NCBI RefSeq assembly: GCF_032714615.1
Contig: NZ_JAWDKA010000008.1
Location: 54,505 to 98,721, forward strand
From: Methanorbis furvi
GTDB lineage: Archaea > Halobacteriota > Methanomicrobia > Methanomicrobiales > Methanocorpusculaceae
DNA: 44,217 nucleotides
Reading direction: 5' to 3'
This document shows, piece after piece, positions 15,972 through 31,142 of the stretch. Position numbers and translations under genes: made by a program. The notes beneath the pieces were generated by a model. That model was not told the origin of the DNA and did not search any database. It saw only the letters and a list, made by a program, of their open reading frames with translations. Position 1 is the first letter of the stretch. Every line of letters begins with the position of its first letter.

Positions 15972-16406
15972 TTATTCCCCGCAGGTATCGCAGTCATGAC
16001 CGCAGGTAGAACACGCCGCAGGCTCTCCCCAGGGTTCTCTGCCGGTTTTTACCAGATAATCATTGATTGCTTTATGGATGGTCTCCTCAGCAAGAACCGA
16101 ACAGTGCATCTTGATTGGCGGCAGTCCGTCCAGTGCCTCAGCGACCGCAATGTTTGAGAGCTGCCAGGCCTCTTCGAGGGTCTTTCCCTTGATCATCTCG
16201 GTTGCCATGCTGCTTGAAGCGATAGCCGCCCCGCAGCCAAACGTCTGAAACTTCGCATCAAGAATGACATCGTTCTCGACTTTGAGATACATCTTCATGA
16301 TGTCGCCACAGGAAGGATTTCCTTCCTCGCCGACACCGTCAGGGTTGTCGATGGTTCCCACATTGCGCGGGTTCATAAAATGGTCCATAACTTTTTCACT
16401 GTACAT
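15972..16406 (-). CDS. iscU: Fe-S cluster assembly scaffold with Cys-rich tail
   Basis: 144 residues. The IscU/NifU N-terminal domain builds Fe-S clusters for transfer to target proteins. The ligands are C33 and D35 (PSCGD), C58 (FGCG) and C102 (HCSV). A ~20-residue tail follows, with four more cysteines (C132, C135, C139, C142) in a CxxC-x3-CxxC pattern, which could bind zinc or a further cluster. The canonical LPPIKMHCSVLAEE region is intact. It starts directly after the iscS stop with no gap (TAAATG), so the two are co-translated. Confidence 0.93.
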   Translation of the reverse strand: MYSEKVMDHFMNPRNVGTIDNPDGVGEEGNPSCGDIMKMYLKVENDVILDAKFQTFGCGAAIASSSMATEMIKGKTLEEAWQLSNIAVAEALDGLPPIKMHCSVLAEETIHKAINDYLVKTGREPWGEPAACSTCGHDCDTCGE

Positions 16407-17588
16407 TTACTTCAGCTCCTTAGGGGTAAGAGGGGACATTGATCTGAGTTTGTGAATTGCCTCCGGCAGTTTTTCCAGAACATAGTTCACGTCTTCATCC
16501 GTGTTTAGCTCGCCGACCGTGAGACGGACTGAGCCGTGGGAAATCTCGTGCGGAACGCCCATGGCGGTAAGAACGTGGGAGGGTTCGAGCGATGCGGAGT
16601 TGCAGGCACTTCCGGTTGAAGCGCAGATGCCGAACATGTTGAGGAGGAGGAGAATTCCTTCGCCTTCGATGTACTCAAAGGTGATGTTGACGTTGTTCGG
16701 CAGCCGTTGTGTCGGATGGCCGTTCAGGTGGCTTGCCGGAATTTTCAGCAGTTCGGTCGCGAGTTTGTCCCGCATTTTGGCAAGACGCGGTGCTTCGGTT
16801 GGCATTTTCTGGACTGCACGTTCAATGGCAGCGCCGAGCCCGACGATTCCGGGGACGTTTTCGGTTCCTGCACGGTGTTTGCTTTCCTGTGCTCCGCCAT
16901 GGATGAGGTTCTGGATGCGGACGCCTTTTCTGATGTAGAGAGCGCCTACACCTTTTGGTCCGTAAAATTTGTGGCCTGAGAGGGAGAGCATGTCGATGTG
17001 TTCGGCTTTGACGTCGATGGGGACATGGCCGACTGCCTGTACTGCGTCGGTGTGGAAGTAGATGTTGTGGGCTTTGGCGATCGAACCGATTTCTTTGATC
17101 GGCTGGATGGTTCCTACTTCGTTGTTGGCGTACATGACCGAGATGAGGATGGTGTCTGGTCTGATGGCTTTTTCAACGTCAGCGGGCGATACCATGCCGA
17201 ATTTGTCGACCGGCAGGTAGGTTACGTCAAAGCCCTGCGACTGTAACCATTCGCCTGCGTGCAAGATTGCGTGGTGTTCGATTGCTGTTGTGATGATGTG
17301 TTTTCCTTTTCTGCTGTTGGCGAATGCTACTCCTTTGAGTACCCAGTTGTCGGATTCTGAGCCTCCTGCGGTGAAGTAGATTTCGTTTGGTTCGGCGTTG
17401 ATGGCGGCTGCTACTTTTGCACGGGCAGCGTCAACTGCTGTTTTGTTTTCCTGTCCGATGTTGTAGACTGATGATGGGTTGCCGAACTTTTCGGAGAAGT
17501 AGGGGAGCATTTCCGCTACGATTTCCGGTGCCGCATAGGTGGTTGCGGCATGGTCCATGTAGATGATTTTTTGATCCGTTTCGGTCAC
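16407..17588 (-). CDS. iscS: Cysteine desulfurase
   Basis: 393 residues. A PLP enzyme that takes sulfur from cysteine and passes it to IscU. Shown by the PLP lysine in SGHKFYG (K207), HTDAVQ (179-184), and the catalytic cysteine in STGSACNS (C329) with the group I loop. The start is uncertain: the GTG used here gives 10 residues before YMDHAATT, the usual N-terminus; an ATG at 17558 would start at MDHAATT, but neither has a good ribosome binding site. It pairs with iscU and is not linked to the Dnd-like cluster 4 kb away, although it could still serve it. Confidence 0.93.
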   Translation of the reverse strand: MTETDQKIIYMDHAATTYAAPEIVAEMLPYFSEKFGNPSSVYNIGQENKTAVDAARAKVAAAINAEPNEIYFTAGGSESDNWVLKGVAFANSRKGKHIITTAIEHHAILHAGEWLQSQGFDVTYLPVDKFGMVSPADVEKAIRPDTILISVMYANNEVGTIQPIKEIGSIAKAHNIYFHTDAVQAVGHVPIDVKAEHIDMLSLSGHKFYGPKGVGALYIRKGVRIQNLIHGGAQESKHRAGTENVPGIVGLGAAIERAVQKMPTEAPRLAKMRDKLATELLKIPASHLNGHPTQRLPNNVNITFEYIEGEGILLLLNMFGICASTGSACNSASLEPSHVLTAMGVPHEISHGSVRLTVGELNTDEDVNYVLEKLPEAIHKLRSMSPLTPKELK

Positions 17589-17760: not shown

Positions 17761-18711
17761 TCACGATGATCTCATCTCTGAGAGAAGTTTTCCAATGTTA
17801 CTTCCAAGCTCGGTCTTCAGTCCGGAAAGTTCTTCGCAGAAATGAGATTCATTTTCAATTGCATCATCGATATGATCTGCAAAGAGACCGAACTTGAGAT
17901 TATTTTTTCGAAATTCTGGATGAATTTTTTGGAGTTCATTTTCCAGAAAGCGTTTGTGGATACTGATTTTTCTGTTAGCCAGCATTTCTTCAGAATCAAG
18001 TTCATGAACTTTTGGAAAATGCAGCAGCAGCCAGAACTCAAAACACGGATTTGAAAGATGGAGTGATATTTTCTTCTCATTACAGAGGGCAAGAACTGAA
18101 TCATATTGACTGCTGGTAAAACTTTCCGGATCTCGATCCACGATAATACAGACTTTGTCGTATCTGGGATTATAGGTAACAAATTGCTGTTTCAAATAGA
18201 TATGAAAGTCCCTGATGGATTCGGCGGAAATGCGGATTTTATAGAGATCAATCAGATGATCGTGGAGTTTTTGCGTCAGCTCATCCCAGTCTGTGATCGG
18301 CGAATCTGGAGAATATCTATCATTCTCAAGATTCTCCAGCAATATTTCCAACATTTTTTGCTTGGTACATCCCTTCTTTGGAAGATGATTTTTCAGAATT
18401 AGCCAGTCAACTGCATGCTCGACGATCGTTTTTACGCTGAATGATCCTGTCTTGTATTCCTCCAGACTTTGTAATACCAGCGGGAGAAATTTCGCAGGAT
18501 TGCTTTGCTGCTCCTTAGTGGCGTGTCTTTGAAGCAGTGTGATATCTTTCAGTGCTGAGAATCCGAGTGACTCCTGCCTACTCTGTATGCCAAAAAAATA
18601 TTGATATTCAGTTTTCACTCCTTCAAACGCCAGAAAGTACTGTGGAAGCGGATCGATTTGGGGGGACTGTGATCCTGGACGAGGGGAGATACCGTTCCTG
18701 TGAATCCTCAT
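17761..18711 (-). CDS. rloB: RloB-family (AbiLii-like) TOPRIM protein
   Basis: 316 residues. It fits the RloB family, the partner of an AAA ATPase in abortive-infection pairs. Seen are LAFEGVKTE (28-35), which supplies the TOPRIM glutamate, IIVDRDPE (about 187-194) for the DxD motif, and NPCFEFWLLLHF (about 220-231), the most conserved RloB segment. TOPRIM nucleases of such pairs cut nucleic acid when the ATPase senses phage. Its start overlaps the rloA stop by 4 bases. GC is lower than in the housekeeping genes, in line with transfer. Confidence 0.85.
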   Translation of the reverse strand: MRIHRNGISPRPGSQSPQIDPLPQYFLAFEGVKTEYQYFFGIQSRQESLGFSALKDITLLQRHATKEQQSNPAKFLPLVLQSLEEYKTGSFSVKTIVEHAVDWLILKNHLPKKGCTKQKMLEILLENLENDRYSPDSPITDWDELTQKLHDHLIDLYKIRISAESIRDFHIYLKQQFVTYNPRYDKVCIIVDRDPESFTSSQYDSVLALCNEKKISLHLSNPCFEFWLLLHFPKVHELDSEEMLANRKISIHKRFLENELQKIHPEFRKNNLKFGLFADHIDDAIENESHFCEELSGLKTELGSNIGKLLSEMRSS

Positions 18712-20093
18712 GTCTGCTCCTGCGCATGCATGGGGAAGAAGGTATCAAAGACTGGAACACTGCCGTATCTCCCTTCCAGATAGGCTTTGTCGACTTTTTT
18801 GTCGAATCTGGCAGTAAATTTGTCCAGAGAGTAAAGTTTTGATTCCCCATTGCGATTTTTCTCAACAAACCAGATTTCATCACGTCTGAGGAGTCGTAGG
18901 TCCATGATATGTGACTCATGTGTGGTCACGATAAGCTGCATGTCGCCTCTGTCTACAAGATTCAGATAGGTTTCGATGAGACGATACGTGAGTTGGGGAT
19001 GAAGACTTCGGTCGATTTCATCGATGATGTAGACTTTACTGTTGCCGGATTCAGCAGCAAATATGAGGTCAAGGAGTTCGATCATGCGTCGAGTGCCGTC
19101 AGACTCTTCTTTGAGATCGAACCATGCGTTGTTTCCTTTGTGTTGGAAGCGGAGTTTCTCGGCGATGGGATTGCTGGTATCTTCTCCCATACGGAGGATG
19201 AAAAATTCTCGCGGTGCCCGAAGCATGATTCCAGCTTCGGGATGGGCTTCTCCATTATTTTTTGCGATCTGTATTTTTTCTGCAAGATCAGTGAGTATTT
19301 TGAGAAATTCTTCCGGTCGGTTTTTGAAGAATTGTCGGATCTCTATCATTTCAGTAGAGACGATCTCAAGTGCGTCAATGCCAAGGCCCAGAGAAGTAAG
19401 GATGGTGTTGATTTTTGGGAGGTTGTTTTTGTCGATGAGATAAGGTAACTGAAGCAGAGGGAAGCCTGGATAGTTGATATTGAGTTGGTCCCTGAACCAA
19501 CGATATACGTCTCTGAGGGCGATTATTTCTGGGTGTGTTTCGTAGAGGTCACCTTTGTTTTCATTGATTTCGTGGAGGTAGAGTTTTGTGGTGTTGGTTT
19601 TCAGAAACGTGGCTACTGTGTCAAGTTCTGAGGTCTTAAATTTCTGACCAAGATTGAAGATACCTTTTTGCGGTTCCCGTTCGAAGATGAGGTTTTCGGG
19701 TTGTTTTGGGTTTAGCTGATAGAGCCATTCACCGGTGATGGTTCGCTGGTTGATTATGACGTCAAATCCATAGGCATAGTAATTTTTACCGATTTTTATT
19801 TCGAACTCGAATGTACTGGGTTTTGTTTTGTTTTCAGGATTGATTTTGCAGTATTCATTGATGGCACCTGGTGGGAATCCATTGAGAATGAGTGCCTGGG
19901 AAAAGTCGAATGCGGATACGAGATTCGATTTGCCGGATGCGTTTGCTCCGAATATTGCGGCGAATTTGAGGAGTTTGAGATTCTTGTCGTTTTGGATGTG
20001 TTCAGCTTTTCTTCTGACTTTTCCACTGATCATAGAGAGTTCTTGACGGTCGTTAAAGGAAAGGAAGTTGGCGACGCTGAAGTTGATGAGCAT
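18708..20093 (-). CDS. rloA: RloA-family (AbiLi-like) AAA/ABC ATPase
   Basis: 461 residues. An OLD/ABC-like ATPase: N-terminal LINFSVANFLSFNDRQELSM, Walker A GANASGKS (49-56), and C-terminal Walker B with D-loop VYIIDEIDRSLHP (about 354-366) followed by LIVTTHESHIMD. There is no nuclease domain; the cutting function would be RloB. The same architecture (ATPase plus TOPRIM partner) is used by AbiL and PARIS, where the ATPase senses a phage protein and releases the effector. First gene of a two-gene operon. Confidence 0.87.
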   Translation of the reverse strand: MLINFSVANFLSFNDRQELSMISGKVRRKAEHIQNDKNLKLLKFAAIFGANASGKSNLVSAFDFSQALILNGFPPGAINEYCKINPENKTKPSTFEFEIKIGKNYYAYGFDVIINQRTITGEWLYQLNPKQPENLIFEREPQKGIFNLGQKFKTSELDTVATFLKTNTTKLYLHEINENKGDLYETHPEIIALRDVYRWFRDQLNINYPGFPLLQLPYLIDKNNLPKINTILTSLGLGIDALEIVSTEMIEIRQFFKNRPEEFLKILTDLAEKIQIAKNNGEAHPEAGIMLRAPREFFILRMGEDTSNPIAEKLRFQHKGNNAWFDLKEESDGTRRMIELLDLIFAAESGNSKVYIIDEIDRSLHPQLTYRLIETYLNLVDRGDMQLIVTTHESHIMDLRLLRRDEIWFVEKNRNGESKLYSLDKFTARFDKKVDKAYLEGRYGSVPVFDTFFPMHAQEQT

Positions 20094-21445: not shown

Positions 21446-21495
21446 TTAGCACAATGAAATGTATACCCGAATATTTCTCGGGAAACATTTGCTAA
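21446..21495. promoter_or_regulatory. Palindromic candidate operator before the Dnd-like cluster
   Basis: Nested inverted repeats: TTAGC (21446-21450) with GCTAA (21491-21495), AAATGT with ACATTT, and CCCGA with TCGGG. The structure ends 24 bases before the TATA box of the radical SAM gene and also lies upstream of the divergent 171-residue gene, so one regulator could control both. DndB, a relative of the second gene in the cluster, is a transcription regulator in bacterial dnd operons. Confidence 0.45.
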
Positions 21496-21518
21496 TTCGC
21501 AAGAACAAATAACGATCT

Positions 21519-21528
21519 GTATATACAA
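21519..21528 (+). promoter_or_regulatory. TATA box of the radical SAM / Dnd-like operon
   Basis: TGTATATACA, a strong archaeal TATA box. The predicted transcript start is near 21549, leaving a leader of about 50 bases with GAGAGG 6-10 bases before the ATG at 21599. Confidence 0.5.
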
Positions 21529-21598
21529 GGATCACCATAAATAAAGATCACGAGATTAATGTAGATTGAAAGTCTATAATTCATATGAGAGGTTCAGG

Positions 21599-22660
21599 AT
21601 GTCACATCGCAAAATCATATTGGTGGAGCCAAAATATTACACACAATTTCCGCCAGTTGGCCTGCTTAAATTTTCTACATATCATAAGCAAAAAGGAGAT
21701 TCTGTCCAATATGTAAAAGGCTTTGTAGAGTTAGACTACGAACCAGACCTTATTTATGTAACTAGCCTTTTTACTTGGACATGGCGTCCTGTGTGGGACG
21801 TAATTAGACAATACAAAACAAAATATCCGGCATCAAAAATAATTCTTGGAGGTATTTATGCATCAGTAATGCCTGACCATGCAAAATATTCCGGTGCTGA
21901 TGTAATTATTCAGGGTATTTGTGACAAAGTCGAAAACATGCCACTTGATTACTCTCTCGTTCCGAAATGGGATGGAAGCATTCTCTTCACATCTCGCGGA
22001 TGCGGAAGAAAATGTGGATTTTGTGCAGTACCTCGTATTGAAGGAAAAATTTGCAAAACTAGAGAGAGCATCAAAGATTATGTAGTTGATGCCCACTCCC
22101 GAATTATTCTCTTTGATAATAACTTCCTCTTGAACCCACACAAAGACAAAATATTCGCAGAACTTAGAGAATATGACAAATATGTTGATTTTAATCAGGG
22201 AATTGATGCACGACTTATTACTGAAGATATCGCCATAAAAATTAGTGAGTTGAAATTGGATAGTACTATCCGCATTGCATATGATGCAAAAAAGGATAGA
22301 GATGCTGTTTACAATGCCATTGAAAATCTCCATCAAGCTGGAATCTCCAAAAGAAGTATCTTCGTATATACATTGTTCAATTATACAGATACCCCGGCGG
22401 ATTTTTTTGACAGAACACGAGATATTTTGAACTGGGGTGCTGTTTGCTACCCTATGAGATATGAACCACTTCGTGCAATTACAAAGAATAGTTATGTCTC
22501 TCCAAATTGGACAATAGATGAAATAGAGGCGATTCAAGCTGCAAGGAGAGTCATTGGATATGGCGGGGCATTTCCTGCCTATACTGGACTGGTTGATAAA
22601 ATTACAAACGCATTTGGTTTTGCTGATGCATTTGAACTACGGGAGTTGAAACAAAAATGA
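21599..22660 (+). CDS. Radical SAM protein with N-terminal B12-binding-like region
   Basis: 353 residues. The N-terminal ~110 residues (IILVEPKYYTQFPPVGLLKF, ...IILGGIYASVMPDH) read like the Rossmann cobalamin-binding part of B12-dependent radical SAM enzymes, though the cobalamin-binding DxHxxG is not evident. The radical SAM cluster motif is C135-x3-C139-x2-C142 in SRGCGRKCGFCAVPR. The reaction is unknown. It overlaps the DGQHR gene by 4 bases and leads the cluster, which suggests that its product or action (for example DNA or tRNA base chemistry) is what the other proteins act on. GAGAGG before this ATG favours it over a TTG 11 codons upstream. AT-rich. Confidence 0.85.
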   Translation: MSHRKIILVEPKYYTQFPPVGLLKFSTYHKQKGDSVQYVKGFVELDYEPDLIYVTSLFTWTWRPVWDVIRQYKTKYPASKIILGGIYASVMPDHAKYSGADVIIQGICDKVENMPLDYSLVPKWDGSILFTSRGCGRKCGFCAVPRIEGKICKTRESIKDYVVDAHSRIILFDNNFLLNPHKDKIFAELREYDKYVDFNQGIDARLITEDIAIKISELKLDSTIRIAYDAKKDRDAVYNAIENLHQAGISKRSIFVYTLFNYTDTPADFFDRTRDILNWGAVCYPMRYEPLRAITKNSYVSPNWTIDEIEAIQAARRVIGYGGAFPAYTGLVDKITNAFGFADAFELRELKQK

Positions 22661-24066
22661 AAAATACTATTTGTTCTTGTTGTGGTCGTAAGATTGTTGA
22701 CAAAGTACATGGTCCATATTCTGATGGACAATGCGTCTGTGATGTATGTTGGAATGACCCTGCGTTGTTTTTTGAAGATAAAGTCGCCACTTCTTTTCAG
22801 ATAAATCCTCAAGAAACACTTGATTTAACTGATAGTTTGAATCAAATCGAGGTCATAGACATGTACCTCTCTTCGGTGAAATCAGGTAGTTTTCAAAATA
22901 CTTTCTCGTGGACGAATCTTATCAATAACAAACATCTAACTATCCCAGTACTGAAATTCAGCCAAAAAGGCCTTCCTTTGTTTATTGGCAAGATTCGGCC
23001 TGCTGAGTTATTAGTGATGAGTTCTGTGGATCAATGGAACGAAGATAGATTAGAGGGATATCAACGCGAACGAATTAAAGAAAAAAATAGAGAAATTAAA
23101 GATTTTTTGAAAAACTGCGACATTCCAATTGTCCCCCCCATTATCGCGAGTGTCAAACTGTCATCATTCATTCCAACTAGTGATGATTATGGCCAAATGG
23201 AGATCCCAATCATTCCGGGTAATATTTCTCTCATAGATGGTCAGCAGAGAACAGGGGGATTTTACGAATTATTTTATGAAATTCGATCTGAAGGGAAAAA
23301 GAATAAAGATCATGGCGATATGATTTTGGATCGTTATGCGGAGTTTTTGAAATTCGAAATCCCTATTCTTCTCATCGATCCTCAACTCATTATTAAAAAA
23401 TTACAGGAAAAAAATTCATTATCTGATATAAAACCAATTGATGTTGAACGTGCTTTCTTCTTCGTGATTAATAAAACTCAGAAGTCGGTAAGTTCTTCAT
23501 TGAAAGATGAACTGGCCTATCTTACGATTTCTGCTGGTATTACGGGAATTCCTGCAATTGAAAAGGATAGATGGCGTGTTGATCTCGTTCCAATAGTGAA
23601 TGAACTGAACAAGGAAGGGTCCCCACTATATGGATTGATTAATCTCGGAGGCTCAAGTGGTCTTCAACGTCCGATCCCATTAACATCATTTGTTTCTTCT
23701 CTGAAACCTCTTTACGATAATCCCACATTTCATGCATATTCCCAAGAAGAAAAATTGCAATTTTTGAAAGCATACTGGGGGGCTGTAAAAGAAGTGTTTC
23801 CAGACGCTTTCGCGCAGACCAAACAGTATTTATTGACCAAAACCATTGGAATGTATCCTATGAATTCACTTTCAGCAGATATATTGAATGAAATGCTGAA
23901 GGATGGGAAAAATCCACTGCTCCAGAGTGATGTCTATCCCTACATCCTTTTGTTGGGGGATCTGGATTGGTCTGTTAATGCATCCGAATTTAGATATTTT
24001 ATTGGTAGAAAAGGAACCGGAAGAGGATATGAATTATTAAAAGAGGCGTTTCAAAAGAAAATTTAA
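22657..24066 (+). CDS. DGQHR-domain (DndB-like) protein with N-terminal zinc finger
   Basis: 469 residues. A short zinc-finger-like N-terminus (C6, C8, C9 and C26, C28, C31; CxxC pairs) is followed by the DGQHR domain, whose signature here is SLIDGQQRTGG (191-201). The flanking features, a TIPVLKF segment and RPAELLVMSSVDQW with the polar helix KEKNREIKDFL, are as in DndB and DpdB. DndB regulates dnd operons, and DpdB is part of 7-deazaguanine insertion into DNA. The middle shows PIDVERAFFFVINKTQKSVS, where DndB proteins have a similar helix. It is translationally coupled to the radical SAM gene. Confidence 0.8.
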   Translation: MKNTICSCCGRKIVDKVHGPYSDGQCVCDVCWNDPALFFEDKVATSFQINPQETLDLTDSLNQIEVIDMYLSSVKSGSFQNTFSWTNLINNKHLTIPVLKFSQKGLPLFIGKIRPAELLVMSSVDQWNEDRLEGYQRERIKEKNREIKDFLKNCDIPIVPPIIASVKLSSFIPTSDDYGQMEIPIIPGNISLIDGQQRTGGFYELFYEIRSEGKKNKDHGDMILDRYAEFLKFEIPILLIDPQLIIKKLQEKNSLSDIKPIDVERAFFFVINKTQKSVSSSLKDELAYLTISAGITGIPAIEKDRWRVDLVPIVNELNKEGSPLYGLINLGGSSGLQRPIPLTSFVSSLKPLYDNPTFHAYSQEEKLQFLKAYWGAVKEVFPDAFAQTKQYLLTKTIGMYPMNSLSADILNEMLKDGKNPLLQSDVYPYILLLGDLDWSVNASEFRYFIGRKGTGRGYELLKEAFQKKI

Positions 24067-24092
24067 CTACCATTTCTTTTGATTATCTATTT

Positions 24093-26198
24093 ATGTTGAA
24101 AAAACGTATTTTCTTTCATATGGGGTTGAAGGATTTACGCTTAAATGATGCCTATTCTACAGGAATGGGTGATGATGTTGTAAATGATTTTTATATCCCT
24201 ATTTTGGGTTGTGCAGTTGAATATAACCGAATATCAGGATATTTTTCATCAAAAAGTTTGGCGATAACAGCCTCGGGTATCAACGGATTAATTCAAAATG
24301 ATGGTGTGATGAGATTATTGACATCCCCAAATCTAGAAAAAAAGGATGTTGAGTGTATTTCTGATATTTTGTCTGGTGATCCTATCTTACTTGAAAAATA
24401 TCTTCTTCAAGAATTGGATTCATTTGATCTTGAAGAATCTTTCACCAAAGATCATGTAAAAGCTCTTGCTTGGATGCTGAAAAATAACCGATTAGAGATA
24501 CGAATTGCTTTACCCATAACCACTAACGGAAATTCCGATCCTGCTTCATTATTTCACTCAAAAATTGGTTACATCAAAGATGTAATGGGTGATTCATTAA
24601 CATTTACTGGTTCAAATAATGAAACAGGATCTGGATTAATTAGGAATATTGAGGATTTTAAGGTGTTTTTTAGTTGGGGTTCTGATAAGGATAAAAAATG
24701 CGTTGACATTGACACCTTAACCTTCGAAAAATACTGGAATAACGAATCTCCATGTGTGAAAACGGTCAGTCTTCCCGATGCTGTCCATCAGAGATTATTA
24801 ACCGTCGCCCCGAATTCCATTGATGATCTGGATCTCGAAAAATATTATGCCGAAAGAAAACAATCCCAACGGGCTATTAAATTGTATGATTATCAAAAAG
24901 ATGCAATTAATAGTTGGTTCGAAGCAGAAAAACGCGGACTCTTTGAAATGGCCACAGGTACAGGAAAAACCTTTACAGCCATTGGGTGTCTAGAGAGGTT
25001 ATTGCTCGAAAGAACATCTCCTCTCTTAATTGTCATTACCTGCCCTCAGGTACATTTAGTAAACCAGTGGGAGACGTCAATCAGAAAATTTGATCTCGAC
25101 GTTGATGTTCTCTATAATTCTAATGAATTAGGAAGTACATGGAAAGATAAATTCAGTGATCTTTTGTCGCATCTAAATCTCGGGCGGAAACAGAGTGCGA
25201 TCTTGATCACGACACATCGTACTTTTTCTTCATCTAAGTTCATCGAAATTCTTAGTCGTAAAAAGAAACGTTTTGAAGTATGTATTGTTGCTGATGAAGC
25301 TCATGGAACCGGAGCTGAGGGAGCGCAAAAAGGACTGTTACCATTATATGATTACCGTCTCGCCCTGAGTGCAACTCCACGCAGGCTATATGACGAAGAA
25401 GGTACTGATGCTATTTTTGACTTCTTTGGAGATACCCTCTATGAATTTCCATTGGATAGAGCCATTACAACTATCAATCCTGCAACTGGAATGATGTTTC
25501 TAACATCATACAGGTACGTCCCAATTTTCGTAAATTTGTCTCGTGGTGAGTACTTGGACTATCAGGAGCTTTCTACGCAAATTCAGAACGCTCGATTTTA
25601 TCATGGTGATCCCGATAAAGATGTAAATCGCGATATTTTAGAAAAACTCCTTATTAAGCGTGCTAATATTGTTAAAAACTGTGATGAGAAATATCCCATG
25701 TTTGAAAGATTACTCTCAGATATCTCAAAAACACTTATGAATACACTCATATTTGTAGATCCTGGCCAGTTCTCTTCCATACTTTCCATCTTGGATTCGC
25801 ATAACATCCGTCATCATCAATTCACCCAATCCGAAGGTGCAAAGCCAGCCAAAAATGGATGCGGGCTCTCAGAACGTGACGAAATAATTCGAGATTTACA
25901 GTCTGGTAAATATCAAGCTCTTGTGGCGATGCAGTGTCTAAATGAGGGAGTTGACATCCCTTCAGCAGACACAGGAATTATACTTGCAAGCAGTACTAAT
26001 CCACGTGAATATGTTCAGAGATTGGGGAGACTGATTCGAAACTTTCCTGGAAAAGAGATGGCCACAGTTTATGACTTTATTGTCTGTCAAAATTTGAATG
26101 GTGTTCGTACAATTCTTCCAAGTGAATTGAACCGTGCCCGCTACATTGGTGTGAGTGCTCAAAATAGTGACGAAATATTGTCTCAATTGTATGTATGA
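24093..26198 (+). CDS. PLD-nuclease / SF2 helicase fusion
   Basis: 701 residues. The N-terminal third is a phospholipase-D-type nuclease domain with one HKD motif: HSK at about 154-156 and GSNNETGSG about 15 residues later. The helicase part follows, with a Q-motif-like YDYQKDAI, Walker A MATGTGKT (about 286-293), DEAH (about 401-404), SATPRR, LNEGVDIPSAD and the arginine finger QRLGRLIRNF (about 641-650). This combination is typical of DNA-defence helicases. Acting with the neighbouring DndD-like ATPase it could sense or cut DNA lacking the modification. It begins 26 bases after the DGQHR gene without a clear ribosome site; an ATG at 24120 is an alternative start. Confidence 0.86.
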   Translation: MLKKRIFFHMGLKDLRLNDAYSTGMGDDVVNDFYIPILGCAVEYNRISGYFSSKSLAITASGINGLIQNDGVMRLLTSPNLEKKDVECISDILSGDPILLEKYLLQELDSFDLEESFTKDHVKALAWMLKNNRLEIRIALPITTNGNSDPASLFHSKIGYIKDVMGDSLTFTGSNNETGSGLIRNIEDFKVFFSWGSDKDKKCVDIDTLTFEKYWNNESPCVKTVSLPDAVHQRLLTVAPNSIDDLDLEKYYAERKQSQRAIKLYDYQKDAINSWFEAEKRGLFEMATGTGKTFTAIGCLERLLLERTSPLLIVITCPQVHLVNQWETSIRKFDLDVDVLYNSNELGSTWKDKFSDLLSHLNLGRKQSAILITTHRTFSSSKFIEILSRKKKRFEVCIVADEAHGTGAEGAQKGLLPLYDYRLALSATPRRLYDEEGTDAIFDFFGDTLYEFPLDRAITTINPATGMMFLTSYRYVPIFVNLSRGEYLDYQELSTQIQNARFYHGDPDKDVNRDILEKLLIKRANIVKNCDEKYPMFERLLSDISKTLMNTLIFVDPGQFSSILSILDSHNIRHHQFTQSEGAKPAKNGCGLSERDEIIRDLQSGKYQALVAMQCLNEGVDIPSADTGIILASSTNPREYVQRLGRLIRNFPGKEMATVYDFIVCQNLNGVRTILPSELNRARYIGVSAQNSDEILSQLYV

Positions 26199-26274
26199 AA
26201 CATATCACAATATTTATCAATTCGGTAAGCTAGGTATTATCTATTGAAATAATGGAGACACGTTAGGTGAAATA

Positions 26275-26460
26275 ATGACAAAAACAGGGCCTGTAAGAAT
26301 TCGAGAGGAGATACAGAAAAATAAAACAGATGATGAGATGGAGGCCCTCCTATTGGGATTATGGGATCTTGAGTTGGAAGAAAAAATGAGATATAAAGAA
26401 GCATACAAAGACTTAATTCTTAAATGTTCTGAGAAAAGATGCGAGAAAGGAACTGAATAA
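26275..26460 (+). CDS. Small charged protein of the Dnd-like cluster (61 aa)
   Basis: A Lys/Glu-rich, likely all-helical protein (TDDEMEALLLGLWDLELEEK). No known motif. It has a strong AGGTGA ribosome site 5 bases before the ATG and ends one base before the DndD-like gene, so it is genuinely expressed as part of the second half of the cluster. An AATATTTATC stretch at about 26208 could be an internal promoter. Its place beside an SMC-type ATPase suggests an accessory subunit, in the way DndE accompanies DndD, but no sequence relationship to DndE is visible. Confidence 0.6.
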   Translation: MTKTGPVRIREEIQKNKTDDEMEALLLGLWDLELEEKMRYKEAYKDLILKCSEKRCEKGTE

Positions 26461-26461
26461 T

Positions 26462-28456
26462 ATGAGAATTACGAAGATTTTAATTTCCAATTATCGCCAA
26501 CATAAAAATATCGAAGTCGAATTTAAAAAACGCGGAGAAAATGATCTTCATCTTTTCATTGCAAAAAATGGAGTTGGAAAGACCAACACTCTGAATGCAA
26601 TTTATTGGTGTCTTTATAATGAAGAACCATATCTCTCGATAAAGAACCAAAGTATGCCAATACTTAACAAAGCATGTTGGAATTCAGGTAAACGACAAGA
26701 AACCGTCTCTGTGGAGATACATATCCAAAATCCCACTAACAAGGAGACAATCATCATCAAAAGGACTCAGAATTTTGATCTAACTGCATCTAATCCAACA
26801 TCCCCCTCAATGCGAGTACCTCGTCCCGAAAATTCAAAATTATCTGTTTTTCAGAGTTTTGGCGGAGCGAATCCATGGGAAATCGAGGACACAGAAAGTA
26901 CAAATAATTTGATATCGCGTTTTGTCCCAAAAGAAATTAGTGAATATTTCCTTTTTGATGGTGAGCGGCTGGATAATTATTTTAGGGATAGTTCTGGGGG
27001 GAAAATTGAGACTGCAATTGCAAGGATTTCCAAGTTGGACCAGTTGGATGATATGAGACGTCGATTGGACACACTTCAAACTGAGTTCCGAAAACAAATA
27101 AAGGGTGGAAATCTATCCATTGAAAATTTAGGTGAAATACGTGACGATTTCAAAAATAAGTTGGAGGAAAATGAAAGGAAGCGCACCCAAACAAAGGAGA
27201 TCATAGAGGATCATAAAAAAAGATTGCAGGAACTTAGCAGTGAGCTAATCCATACTCCAGATATCAAGAAAATTGAAGCAGATTTACTAAAAGTCGATAT
27301 GGATATAACATCAATCTCATCAGCCCAATCTATAGATCAAAAAACAAAAAGTGATAAGGTATATGAGTATTTTATCAAATGGCAGTTTTATCAACCAATG
27401 ATACTTCTGAAGAGCGAAATTAATCGCAAGAGGCAAACTAAAGAAATTCCCGTAGTACAAAATAAGGATGTTGTTGAGGAAATTAAACGATTACATCATT
27501 GCAGCATCTGCGGACGTGAGCTTGATTCCAACTCAGAGATCTTTATTGATAACCTTTTGAAATCATATACTATGTCAACGACCACTTCAAGTGAGTTACT
27601 TGGTATCGATTGGTTACTTGGCAATACAATTCGTGAGTTCCAGGAATCTTTTCCAGATAAATTGGATGAGATTACCGAACGTATCAACCGGCATGAAGAG
27701 CAATTGAGTAGTGCTGACGCAAGGAAGGGTGAACTTTCATTTTCCATAAAAAATTATAGCGACGGTAAGGTCAGAAAACTTCAGGAGGAACGTGAGGATC
27801 GAGAGACGGCAAAATACAATGCCGTACGAACTTTGGGATCATTAGATAGTGAAATAGATCGCCTCAAGATTGAATTTGATAAGGCTGAAAGGAACTTGGA
27901 CCGTGAAACGTCAAAAGTGGATAAAAAAAACAGATCAAAACAATCTTACGAGATATGTGGAGAGGCAATCCGCATTTTAGATAAGTCTCGTGAGAACATT
28001 TTGAATGATATTCGTAATGATATTCAGACGGAAACTAATACTGCTTTCTTTAAAATGATCTGGAAAAAGTCGACTTTTAAAGAAATTAAGATTGAAAAAG
28101 ATTACAGTGTCATGCTCTATGACATGAATGATGTGCCTGTGTTAGGGAGTATTAGTAAAGCAGAAAACGAGTTATTGGCCTTGGCATTTACCATGGCCTT
28201 GCATAAGGTATCTGGTTTTGAGGCTCCAATTATTATTGATACTCCAGTTGCTCGAATTTCAAGTGAACAACGTGCGGCATTTGGAAGAGCTTTGGCCGAT
28301 GTGAGTAAAGATAAACAAATGATTTTGCTGTTTACTCCTGATGAGTACTCTGATAATATCCGGGAAGTCATAGAGCCAATTGCAAGTCAAAAATATACGT
28401 ATGAGCTCTCTCCTGATGAAGCTGAAACAAGATTAATCACTGTCGGAGAAATATAA
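26462..28456 (+). CDS. DndD-like SMC/Rad50-type ATPase
   Basis: 664 residues. The order is N-terminal Walker A lobe (KNGVGKT 35-41, after MRITKILISNYRQHKNIEVEF), long coiled coil, a zinc hook CSIC (about C347, C350), a second coiled coil, then the C-terminal lobe with the signature-like SKAENELLALAFTMAL and Walker B PIIIDTPVARISSEQR (about 590-605). EYFLFDGERLDNYF around 160 is the conserved DndD segment. DndD supplies ATP-driven DNA handling in phosphorothioation. Here no DndC or DndA accompanies it, so the chemistry must differ or be supplied elsewhere. Confidence 0.85.
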   Translation: MRITKILISNYRQHKNIEVEFKKRGENDLHLFIAKNGVGKTNTLNAIYWCLYNEEPYLSIKNQSMPILNKACWNSGKRQETVSVEIHIQNPTNKETIIIKRTQNFDLTASNPTSPSMRVPRPENSKLSVFQSFGGANPWEIEDTESTNNLISRFVPKEISEYFLFDGERLDNYFRDSSGGKIETAIARISKLDQLDDMRRRLDTLQTEFRKQIKGGNLSIENLGEIRDDFKNKLEENERKRTQTKEIIEDHKKRLQELSSELIHTPDIKKIEADLLKVDMDITSISSAQSIDQKTKSDKVYEYFIKWQFYQPMILLKSEINRKRQTKEIPVVQNKDVVEEIKRLHHCSICGRELDSNSEIFIDNLLKSYTMSTTTSSELLGIDWLLGNTIREFQESFPDKLDEITERINRHEEQLSSADARKGELSFSIKNYSDGKVRKLQEEREDRETAKYNAVRTLGSLDSEIDRLKIEFDKAERNLDRETSKVDKKNRSKQSYEICGEAIRILDKSRENILNDIRNDIQTETNTAFFKMIWKKSTFKEIKIEKDYSVMLYDMNDVPVLGSISKAENELLALAFTMALHKVSGFEAPIIIDTPVARISSEQRAAFGRALADVSKDKQMILLFTPDEYSDNIREVIEPIASQKYTYELSPDEAETRLITVGEI

Positions 28457-28457
28457 G

Positions 28458-28877
28458 ATGCCATTTAATGAAGTTGATAGGGTATATATTGATGCGAATG
28501 ATCGGGAAAAATATAATGACAAGACGGGTTTAGGATCACTTTCTCCTTTTTTTGCCCAAAAAAGCAATTCCGATCTATTTCTCTTTGCCATTGCATATGC
28601 ATTAAAAAATGGATTGCCACGAAAGCCTCTTGCCTCAAGAGATGGCTATTTTAGAACTGATTATCTGAAAGAAGTTGATGAAGTGCTCTTGAAATCTCTT
28701 GCCGTGTATGATAAAAAATCCATTGATGTTTTAGAAAATGAGAAAGAAATTCTTCAAATCGCTGAAGAGTACGCAAATGCCGGAATTAAGGTATTATACA
28801 AAGATCTTAAAAATAGAAGCGGGAATTATCAGCTGGAGATAGAGGAGTATCTTGCAGAGATAGATATCCCTCGATGA
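28458..28877 (+). CDS. Dnd-system-associated protein 4-like protein
   Basis: 139 residues. The middle helix LFLFAIAYALKNG, the DGYFRTDYL segment, and the C-terminal ENEKEILQIAEEYANAGIKVL match, by eye, the pattern of the small Dnd-associated protein 4 family (helix rich in FAxA, then an EEYAN-G-xxxL ending). Its function is unknown in known systems; it occurs next to phosphorothioation genes. It starts one base after the DndD-like stop and is the last gene of the AT-rich block. The similarity is recalled from family consensus, not computed. Confidence 0.7.
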   Translation: MPFNEVDRVYIDANDREKYNDKTGLGSLSPFFAQKSNSDLFLFAIAYALKNGLPRKPLASRDGYFRTDYLKEVDEVLLKSLAVYDKKSIDVLENEKEILQIAEEYANAGIKVLYKDLKNRSGNYQLEIEEYLAEIDIPR

Positions 28878-30165: not shown

Positions 30166-30600
30166 ATGCGAAAACACATCTACCTGATACTCACCAAAGA
30201 AGAAAACGATCTTCTCGACGAAATCATCCACAGTGCAGGCTTCACCACCCGCTCTGGATACATCGCCGCAGTCGCAAAAACCACCCTCTACGGACTCAAC
30301 ACCGGAGAGTGGATTGAAAAAATCCGCAAACTCGCAACCGACAAAAACCGGACCGAAGCAGTATTCTTCGCACTCCTCAGCGAACTCGCCTTCCCTGCAA
30401 TCGCCATGAAAGGCAGCAAAATCGCCCTTGAAGCACTCATCGAAGAACTCAAAAGCGAAATGTACAACAGAACCGGAATCGTCCCCGAAACCTCCGACCT
30501 CGAACGACTCGCAGGCGAGTATGAAACCCTCTACCGACCTGAACTCCTCGCATACCGAACCGAAACCCGCACCCGCACCTATCTGGAGGAAAACCCATGA
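30166..30600 (+). CDS. Small protein with ribbon-helix-helix-like N-terminus
   Basis: 144 residues. The N-terminus RKHIYLILTKEENDLLDEII, then SGYIAAVAKTTLYGLN, has the strand-helix-helix pattern of DNA-binding ribbon-helix-helix proteins. The rest is helical and charged, ending ETRTRTYLEENP, with no known motif. The ATG is preferred over an in-frame GTG 10 codons earlier. It overlaps the HNH gene as ATGA, and may regulate or assist it. Not recognised at family level. Confidence 0.55.
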   Translation: MRKHIYLILTKEENDLLDEIIHSAGFTTRSGYIAAVAKTTLYGLNTGEWIEKIRKLATDKNRTEAVFFALLSELAFPAIAMKGSKIALEALIEELKSEMYNRTGIVPETSDLERLAGEYETLYRPELLAYRTETRTRTYLEENP

Positions 30601-31142
30601 CCACCGCCCTCTCCCTCATCTCCCCTCCCTCAACACGCTACTCCCCGCCGCCCCTCATCCACGCAGGCGACTACGCAGCATGGTACAAACACGCAACCGG
30701 CGAATGGATCTACGACTTCGCCAGCGGCCAGATCACCAACCGCCGCACCGGACGCCTCGTCCCCTTCCGCGTAAAACCGAACGGCTACCTCGAAGCAGAC
30801 GTCATCGTCAAAGGCGTCCGCATCCATGTCAAAAAGCATCGTGCAATCTGGGTTGCGGCGCACGGCATCCTCGCAATCCCGGTCGATTACGCACTTGAAG
30901 TTGACCACATCAACCACAACCGCTTTGACTGCCGGCTTGAAAACCTCAGACTCGTCCGACCCGAAGAAAACCGAAAGAATCGTGTTCGCTTCTTCGACGA
31001 TCCCGCAGTTCGCGAAATCCGCAGGCGTCACCGCGAAGAGTCTGCCTCCTTCACCGAACTTGCCCGCGAGTTTGGCGTCTGCCACACCACCATCAGCCGC
31101 ATCGTCAAACGCCTGACCTACAAGGAGGTCTCTGATGACTGA
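30597..31142 (+). CDS. HNH endonuclease with C-terminal helix-turn-helix
   Basis: 181 residues. An N-terminal region with WIYDFASGQITNRRTGR resembles the entry module of phage and homing HNH nucleases. The HNH core is H81 plus DH (103-104) in LEVDHINHNRFD and N116 in LENLRLV. The C-terminal part (about 138-172) is a helix-turn-helix: FTELAREFGVCHTTISRIVK. Such proteins are mobile nicking or cutting enzymes of phages and plasmids. It overlaps the genes on both sides, so the cluster is one transcript. Confidence 0.82.
   Translation: MTTALSLISPPSTRYSPPPLIHAGDYAAWYKHATGEWIYDFASGQITNRRTGRLVPFRVKPNGYLEADVIVKGVRIHVKKHRAIWVAAHGILAIPVDYALEVDHINHNRFDCRLENLRLVRPEENRKNRVRFFDDPAVREIRRRHREESASFTELAREFGVCHTTISRIVKRLTYKEVSDD

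Follow-up and report, generated by a model that had tools for sequence, protein, structure and literature searches.

Which enzyme could supply the mark for a modification-dependent restriction module when no DndC and no methyltransferase lies beside it? The question is raised by a six-gene cluster (21599-28877, plus strand) of the archaeon Methanorbis furvi, located in a stretch of 44,217 nucleotides that was analysed as a whole (hereafter the window). An earlier description, made from the sequence alone (the sequence-only reading), presented the cluster as a Dnd-like system of different chemistry, in which a radical S-adenosylmethionine (SAM) enzyme, here called rSAM, replaces DndC or DpdA. 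Comparative evidence favours a role of rSAM as a stand-in for modification genes; four of the six genes turned out to be a published module, and that rSAM and its DGQHR partner form a separate mobile unit had not been foreseen. Probably, the six genes make up a modification-dependent defence system in which rSAM and the DGQHR protein are a swappable writer of a DNA modification and the products of the other four, PbeABCD, are the restrictor.

The cluster and its published restriction half

All six genes of the sequence-only reading are present on the plus strand in an AT-rich block as described (GC 0.35-0.40 versus about 0.45-0.58 in the flanks), and this excess of AT over the flanks suggests recent acquisition. 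The rSAM gene (21599..22660) encodes a candidate DNA-modifying enzyme; it had been taken to begin at 21446, which is not possible because in-frame stop codons lie between 21446 and 21563. The start is ATG at 21599 or TTG at 21566, and a second genomic copy of the gene begins with MSN at the same place as the ATG. The gene of the DGQHR/DndB-like protein (22657..24066) overlaps that of rSAM by 4 bp and is followed, after a 26-bp gap, by pbeA (24093..26198), after a 76-bp gap by the gene of a PbeB-like small protein (26275..26460), and then by pbeC (26462..28456) and pbeD (28458..28877), with 1-bp gaps before each of the two. Thus, the tight junctions ascribed to most of the cluster are real at three out of five places, while the 26-bp and 76-bp gaps do not fit. 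A repeat scan and a promoter scan around the cluster gave nothing informative.

The last four genes are the already published and named module pbeABCD (CxC ABC-ATPase/PLD-helicase), and the restriction half of the cluster is not new. PbeA, a PLD (HKD)-type nuclease domain fused to an SF2 helicase, matches the PADLOC PbeA model with 685 bits and keeps the HxK...GSxNE motif. PbeC, a coiled-coil ABC ATPase with a zinc-hook motif (CSIC), scores 351 bits with the PADLOC PbeC model and 128 bits with DndD. These two bear out the PLD-helicase and SMC-like ATPase of the sequence-only reading, while its Dnd-associated-4 assignment is weaker: PbeD, the DndE cognate of the module, reaches 35.6 bits with dnd_assoc_4 (TIGR04062), below the cut-off of 74, and is tentatively assigned with the help of its position after pbeC. 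Homologues of this PbeD with 30-33% identity occupy the same place in two other loci of the survey described below (L034 and L038). The 61-residue protein gave no family match; it is assigned as PbeB-like by its place between pbeA and pbeC, by a size as in other Pbe loci, and by weak similarity in an alignment.

The pbeABCD cassette was described in haloarchaea, where PbeB and PbeD have 66 and 152 residues, respectively, and where replication of viral DNA is blocked by PbeABCD in a way that depends on the modification (Xiong et al., 2019, PMC6459918); it has been re-annotated as a CxC ABC-ATPase system (PMC10853773). In the haloarchaeal phosphorothioate system DndCDEA-PbeABCD, the order of PbeA, a PbeB-size protein, PbeC, and PbeD is identical to that in the window, whereas here DndC is missing and the rSAM-DGQHR pair stands in place of DndCDEA (PMC6459918). 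The CxC ABC-ATPase systems (2024, PMC10853773) likewise combine an HKD-SF2 helicase, a small protein, a coiled-coil ABC ATPase, and a DndE cognate, but their reported modification partners are phosphorothioation or cytosine methylases, and a text search of that paper found no rSAM enzyme in their operons. The zinc hook of the window PbeC is CxxC, not CxC as in the haloarchaeal system. The CxxC form is found in the rSAM-linked PbeC proteins of the window and of loci L034, L038, and L051, while nearly all Dnd-linked PbeC proteins have CxC. Lack of a Dnd partner is common for the module: 320 of 553 pbeAC pairs occur without dndCD, and other marks have been proposed for them (PMC6459918). For a PbeABCD without DndCD, the rSAM-DGQHR pair is a candidate maker of the mark.

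The rSAM-DGQHR pair

rSAM carries a B12-binding domain (PF02310, 35.9 bits) and a Radical_SAM domain (PF04055, 34.8 bits), both above cut-off. Its CxxxCxxC motif (C136, C140, and C143) is invariant in an alignment of 12 orthologues and is present in 99 of 99 cellular sequences examined (including plasmid sequences and one from a phage) and in 71 of 71 viral ones. A predicted structure (mean pLDDT, the predicted local distance difference test score, of 79; the C-terminal 65 residues are poorly predicted) matches known folds over about 280 residues, with TsrM at the top (Z 21.1, 281 residues), followed by AprD4 (19.9), MgmA (19.0), MtaB/MiaB (about 18), OxsB (17.3), and CysS (16.9). Judged from this model, the best matches of rSAM are cobalamin-dependent radical SAM methylases. 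Such enzymes (TsrM, MgmA, OxsB, CysS, and TokK) have in common with rSAM a B12-binding domain with a radical SAM fold and a single CxxxCxxC cluster, but they act on metabolites, antibiotics, or protein, whereas the rSAM family is tied to DNA restriction. Methylthiotransferases of the MiaB/RimO type hold a second [4Fe-4S] cluster on three N-terminal cysteines, and no second set of invariant cysteines was found beside C136, C140, and C143 in the 12-orthologue alignment, which argues against this type. Neither rSAM nor the DGQHR protein matched the sequences of solved structures in a sequence search.

Some of these fold neighbours act on protein (MgmA) or on tRNA (MiaB and MtaB), as would be expected if rSAM modified one of the system's own proteins or RNAs. 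This explanation is very unlikely, since the only common feature of the varied modules beside the rSAM family is that they are DNA-restriction modules, and a conserved gene for a peptide or RNA substrate was not seen, though no systematic search for one was made.

The DGQHR protein, a candidate NTPase or DNA-handling partner of rSAM with N-terminal cysteine motifs, was correctly recognized as DndB-like from its sequence, with 86 bits to TIGR03187 (cut-off 59); its DGQxR and NKTQ motifs are invariant across 16 homologues. The predicted structure weakly resembles ParB-superfamily NTPases (Z 4.7-6.2), namely KorB, SspE, ParB/Noc, and a chain of the DndBCDE-DndI structure, and the sequence matches the DpdB model with 49 bits, against an NCBIfam cut-off of 300. 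In Dpd systems, which place 7-deazaguanine in DNA, DpdA inserts the base and is driven in this by DpdB, a ParB-like ATPase (summary in PMC12839542). The window pair is similar in that a catalytic enzyme is joined to a DGQHR/ParB-like protein, but the six window proteins include no match to DpdA (a search confined to these six and not extended to the whole genome), so the chemistry must differ.

Furthermore, the host genome (1.85 Mb, 96% complete) harbors a second rSAM-DGQHR pair on another contig (C4), also AT-rich, whose proteins are 83% (rSAM) and 70% (DGQHR) identical to those of the window. In place of pbe genes, the gene of a different restriction protein follows this pair. Its product of 780 residues, a nuclease-like/DGQHR fusion, contains a DGQHR domain, and the N-terminal part shows weak similarity to resolvases. 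The two rSAM copies are more similar in amino acids (83%) than in nucleotides (73%), indicating purifying selection. Within the phylum, relatives of the pair lie beside DISARM genes in three loci (L033, L035, and L036), a lone rSAM lies beside DISARM in L037, and rSAM lies beside pbe genes in L034 and L038. The cultured Methanoculleus sediminis S3Fa also has rSAM and DGQHR together with DISARM (L053). The pair is thus a separate mobile unit, duplicated in this genome and common to DISARM and other systems. A genome of the same genus (G136) has an rSAM gene split over two frames (L043, 9175-10300); the small genes around it are high in GC and may belong to a mobile or proviral region. In a Bathyarchaeota genome, rSAM and DGQHR genes adjoin each other in two copies each (L060).

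Other modification genes and exchange between restriction modules

The cluster contains no sulfur-insertion gene, as the sequence-only reading stated, and no DndC was found over cut-off in the host genome either. A DndC hidden elsewhere is rejected as a candidate; the best match in the genome is partial and scores 35.6 bits against a cut-off of 290. Matches to the PAPS-reductase domain come from two large open reading frames on other contigs. The desulfurase of the window (16407-17588, minus strand) was tried as DndA and rejected: it is a NifS cysteine desulfurase over the NifS cut-off with 603 bits, stays below that of DndA (384 of 480 bits), and is encoded beside NifU; this comparison with DndA was confined to the window. 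This NifS-NifU pair (15972-17588, minus strand) belongs to ordinary Fe-S assembly and could be mistaken for DndA. A cytosine-5 methyltransferase was not found in the host genome, and the only methyltransferase motif hit near the cluster (30597-31142, plus strand) is an HNH endonuclease with a helix-turn-helix, similar to phage HNH families. Just upstream of the cluster, a pair of genes overlapping by 4 bp (17761-20093, minus strand) encodes an RloB-like protein (PF13707) and an AAA_21 ATPase, likely another defence unit.

The search of other genomes that the sequence-only reading proposed recovered the same arrangement. The 12-sequence rSAM alignment was used as the query to collect 80 cellular and 80 viral loci, and more were added from plasmid and phage records; neighbourhoods were scored by profile searches, and a tree was built from 95 distinct rSAM sequences, cellular or plasmid-borne except for one from a phage. 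In 48 of the 95 loci, rSAM adjoins a restriction module: Pbe in 15, DISARM in 14, an SNF2 helicase-ParB module in 12, and a nuclease-DGQHR module in 7. Within 600 bp of rSAM, a DGQHR gene is found in 20 loci and a GHKL ATPase gene in 28 (5 of these have both), and neither in 52. The labels of these modules change 33 times on the rSAM tree, indicating that rSAM, the putative writer, has been re-coupled many times; branches with good support alone demand at least nine changes each for Pbe, for DISARM, and for helicase-ParB. Conversely, in a PbeA tree the rSAM-linked sequences do not form one clade but occur in at least two places, one of them beside Dnd-linked PbeA, and at least two changes are forced. 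Exchange among at least four restriction modules has therefore occurred repeatedly. In one DrmB subfamily, all nine strong matches in 393 genomes have rSAM close by.

Defence genes cluster, and the RloB/AAA pair next to the cluster could be read in this way, with rSAM a chance neighbour in a defence island of a solitary, perhaps inactive, Pbe cassette. Such coincidence is hardly credible, because the arrangement recurs in other genomes and across phyla with genes that overlap or abut, and because only about 0.01 co-localisations would be expected (estimated by hand, with rSAM at 26 places among 393 genomes and a genome size of roughly 2 Mb) versus three seen among 23 PbeA loci.

A motif screen for methyltransferases and DndC, reaching 9 kb from each of the 48 rSAM loci with a module, found none that was convincing; of four motif hits, two are an HNH protein and an integrase by Pfam, one overlaps an annotated transposase, and one is an open reading frame of 155 residues. 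By contrast, Pbe and DISARM loci of the same phylum that have no rSAM often carry such genes: a PP-loop protein resembling DndC or a methyltransferase motif occurs in at least 13 of 20 Pbe loci, and a methyltransferase motif in 8 of 12 DISARM loci. Raw motif hits are 2 in 29 rSAM-linked Pbe and DISARM loci, compared with 21 in 32 rSAM-free loci of the phylum (Fisher p = 2.8e-6). DISARM itself (DrmABC with a methyltransferase) also pairs a restriction module with a modification enzyme, but it is not the module of the window, and the 14 DISARM-like loci with rSAM lack a recognised methyltransferase. These neighbourhoods weaken the idea that another enzyme, such as the unlinked N4/N6 methyltransferase encoded on another contig, writes the mark that PbeABCD reads, and that the pair does no more than tailor or regulate it. 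This idea would suit the numerous pbeAC loci that stand by themselves or close to methyltransferases (PMC6459918); since no conserved methyltransferase lies beside the pair in the 48 loci and the pair moves between modules as a unit, it appears improbable.

There are further combinations. On alphaproteobacterial plasmids (Rhizobium, Agrobacterium, Novosphingobium, and Roseomonas), genes for DGQHR, rSAM, and GHKL follow one another, their ends overlapping or nearly abutting, and adjoin helicase-ParB, DGQHR-fusion, or PIN-domain genes. Beside this triad, a recurrent unit of two genes is seen in L211-L214, one with a PIN_8 domain and the other a second HATPase_c_3 gene. A protein of about 1100 residues, encoded with rSAM-linked DISARM genes in L035 (10053-13382, minus strand), is a candidate new DISARM component; this copy matched nothing in Pfam, NCBIfam, or PADLOC, and homologues occur in L033, L036, L044-L046, L052, L054, and L129.

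Many phages carry rSAM alone, for example Marinitoga camini virus 1 (47% identity); the partner genes tested for are all missing near rSAM in 59 of the 71 viral contigs analysed, and DGQHR was not found in phage records. Solitary genes would be expected of orphan protective modifiers, and they fit the idea that viruses use this mark to shield themselves. A comparable suggestion exists for a radical SAM module of the Thermus phages Cumys and phiMa, which its authors speculate makes a DNA modification; the partner there is DUF483 (PMC11437467). Alternatively, rSAM might make a small-molecule or nucleotide antiviral and be an effector instead of a writer. Viperins are radical SAM enzymes used in defence (reviewed in PMC12926258), and half of the rSAM family is not beside a restriction module. 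Phage carriage is easier to reconcile with a protective mark than with an antiviral effector, however; rSAM has a B12-binding domain, viperin is absent among its reported family matches and among the fold matches given above, and in two systems that are unrelated to each other the gene, accompanied by DndB-like or GHKL partners, takes the usual place of modification genes. An effector of this kind is therefore unlikely.

A putative writer of a radical-made mark

If rSAM and DGQHR act as the writer, the cobalamin-type enzyme would put a chemical mark on host DNA, most likely by radical C-methylation or a related alkylation of a nucleotide, and the DGQHR partner of the ParB superfamily may guide or power it in an ATP-driven or DNA-handling role, by analogy with DpdB. 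The PbeC-PbeD pair would then scan DNA, and the PbeA helicase-PLD protein would stop or cut DNA without the mark. The data establish gene content, linkage, exchange, exclusion, and fold; from these we infer DNA as the substrate, a methyl-type mark as the product, and PbeABCD as its reader.

Several points weigh against this mechanism. DNA as the substrate of rSAM rests on gene context, and defence genes cluster generally, which makes adjacency alone weak evidence. The range of possible reactions is wide, since the fold similarity covers methylases, a dehydratase, and methylthiotransferases. In 47 of the 95 rSAM loci, none of the four modules is in reach, be it because contigs are short or because partners or roles differ. 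The N4/N6 methyltransferase of the host, unlinked on contig C6, could in principle mark DNA, and one rSAM locus (L071) adjoins an N6-methyltransferase/Eco57I-type gene. The methyltransferase screen is motif-based and crude, could miss divergent enzymes, and differs slightly between its two versions.

PbeABCD is known, and the rSAM writer seems undescribed as far as the literature searched shows: no description of rSAM joined to DISARM, BREX, DndB, DGQHR, or Pbe was found, but coverage was partial and a prior mention is possible. The odds slightly favour the broader proposal that a cobalamin-type rSAM with DGQHR and/or GHKL is an undescribed class of writer, making a DNA mark by radical chemistry, exchanged among at least four modules across archaeal and bacterial hosts and acquired by phages.

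To our knowledge, the known writers of self/non-self marks in restriction-like systems are SAM-dependent methyltransferases, the Dnd/Ssp sulfur machinery, and base exchange of the DpdA type. If the proposal is true, rSAM would be a further class, and a DNA modification absent from present catalogues would have to exist, because radical chemistry reaches carbons beyond ordinary methyltransferases. Such a writer would also answer the question left by Xiong et al. (2019), namely which mark is used by the many PbeABCD cassettes without DndCD, and account for DISARM loci without a methyltransferase.

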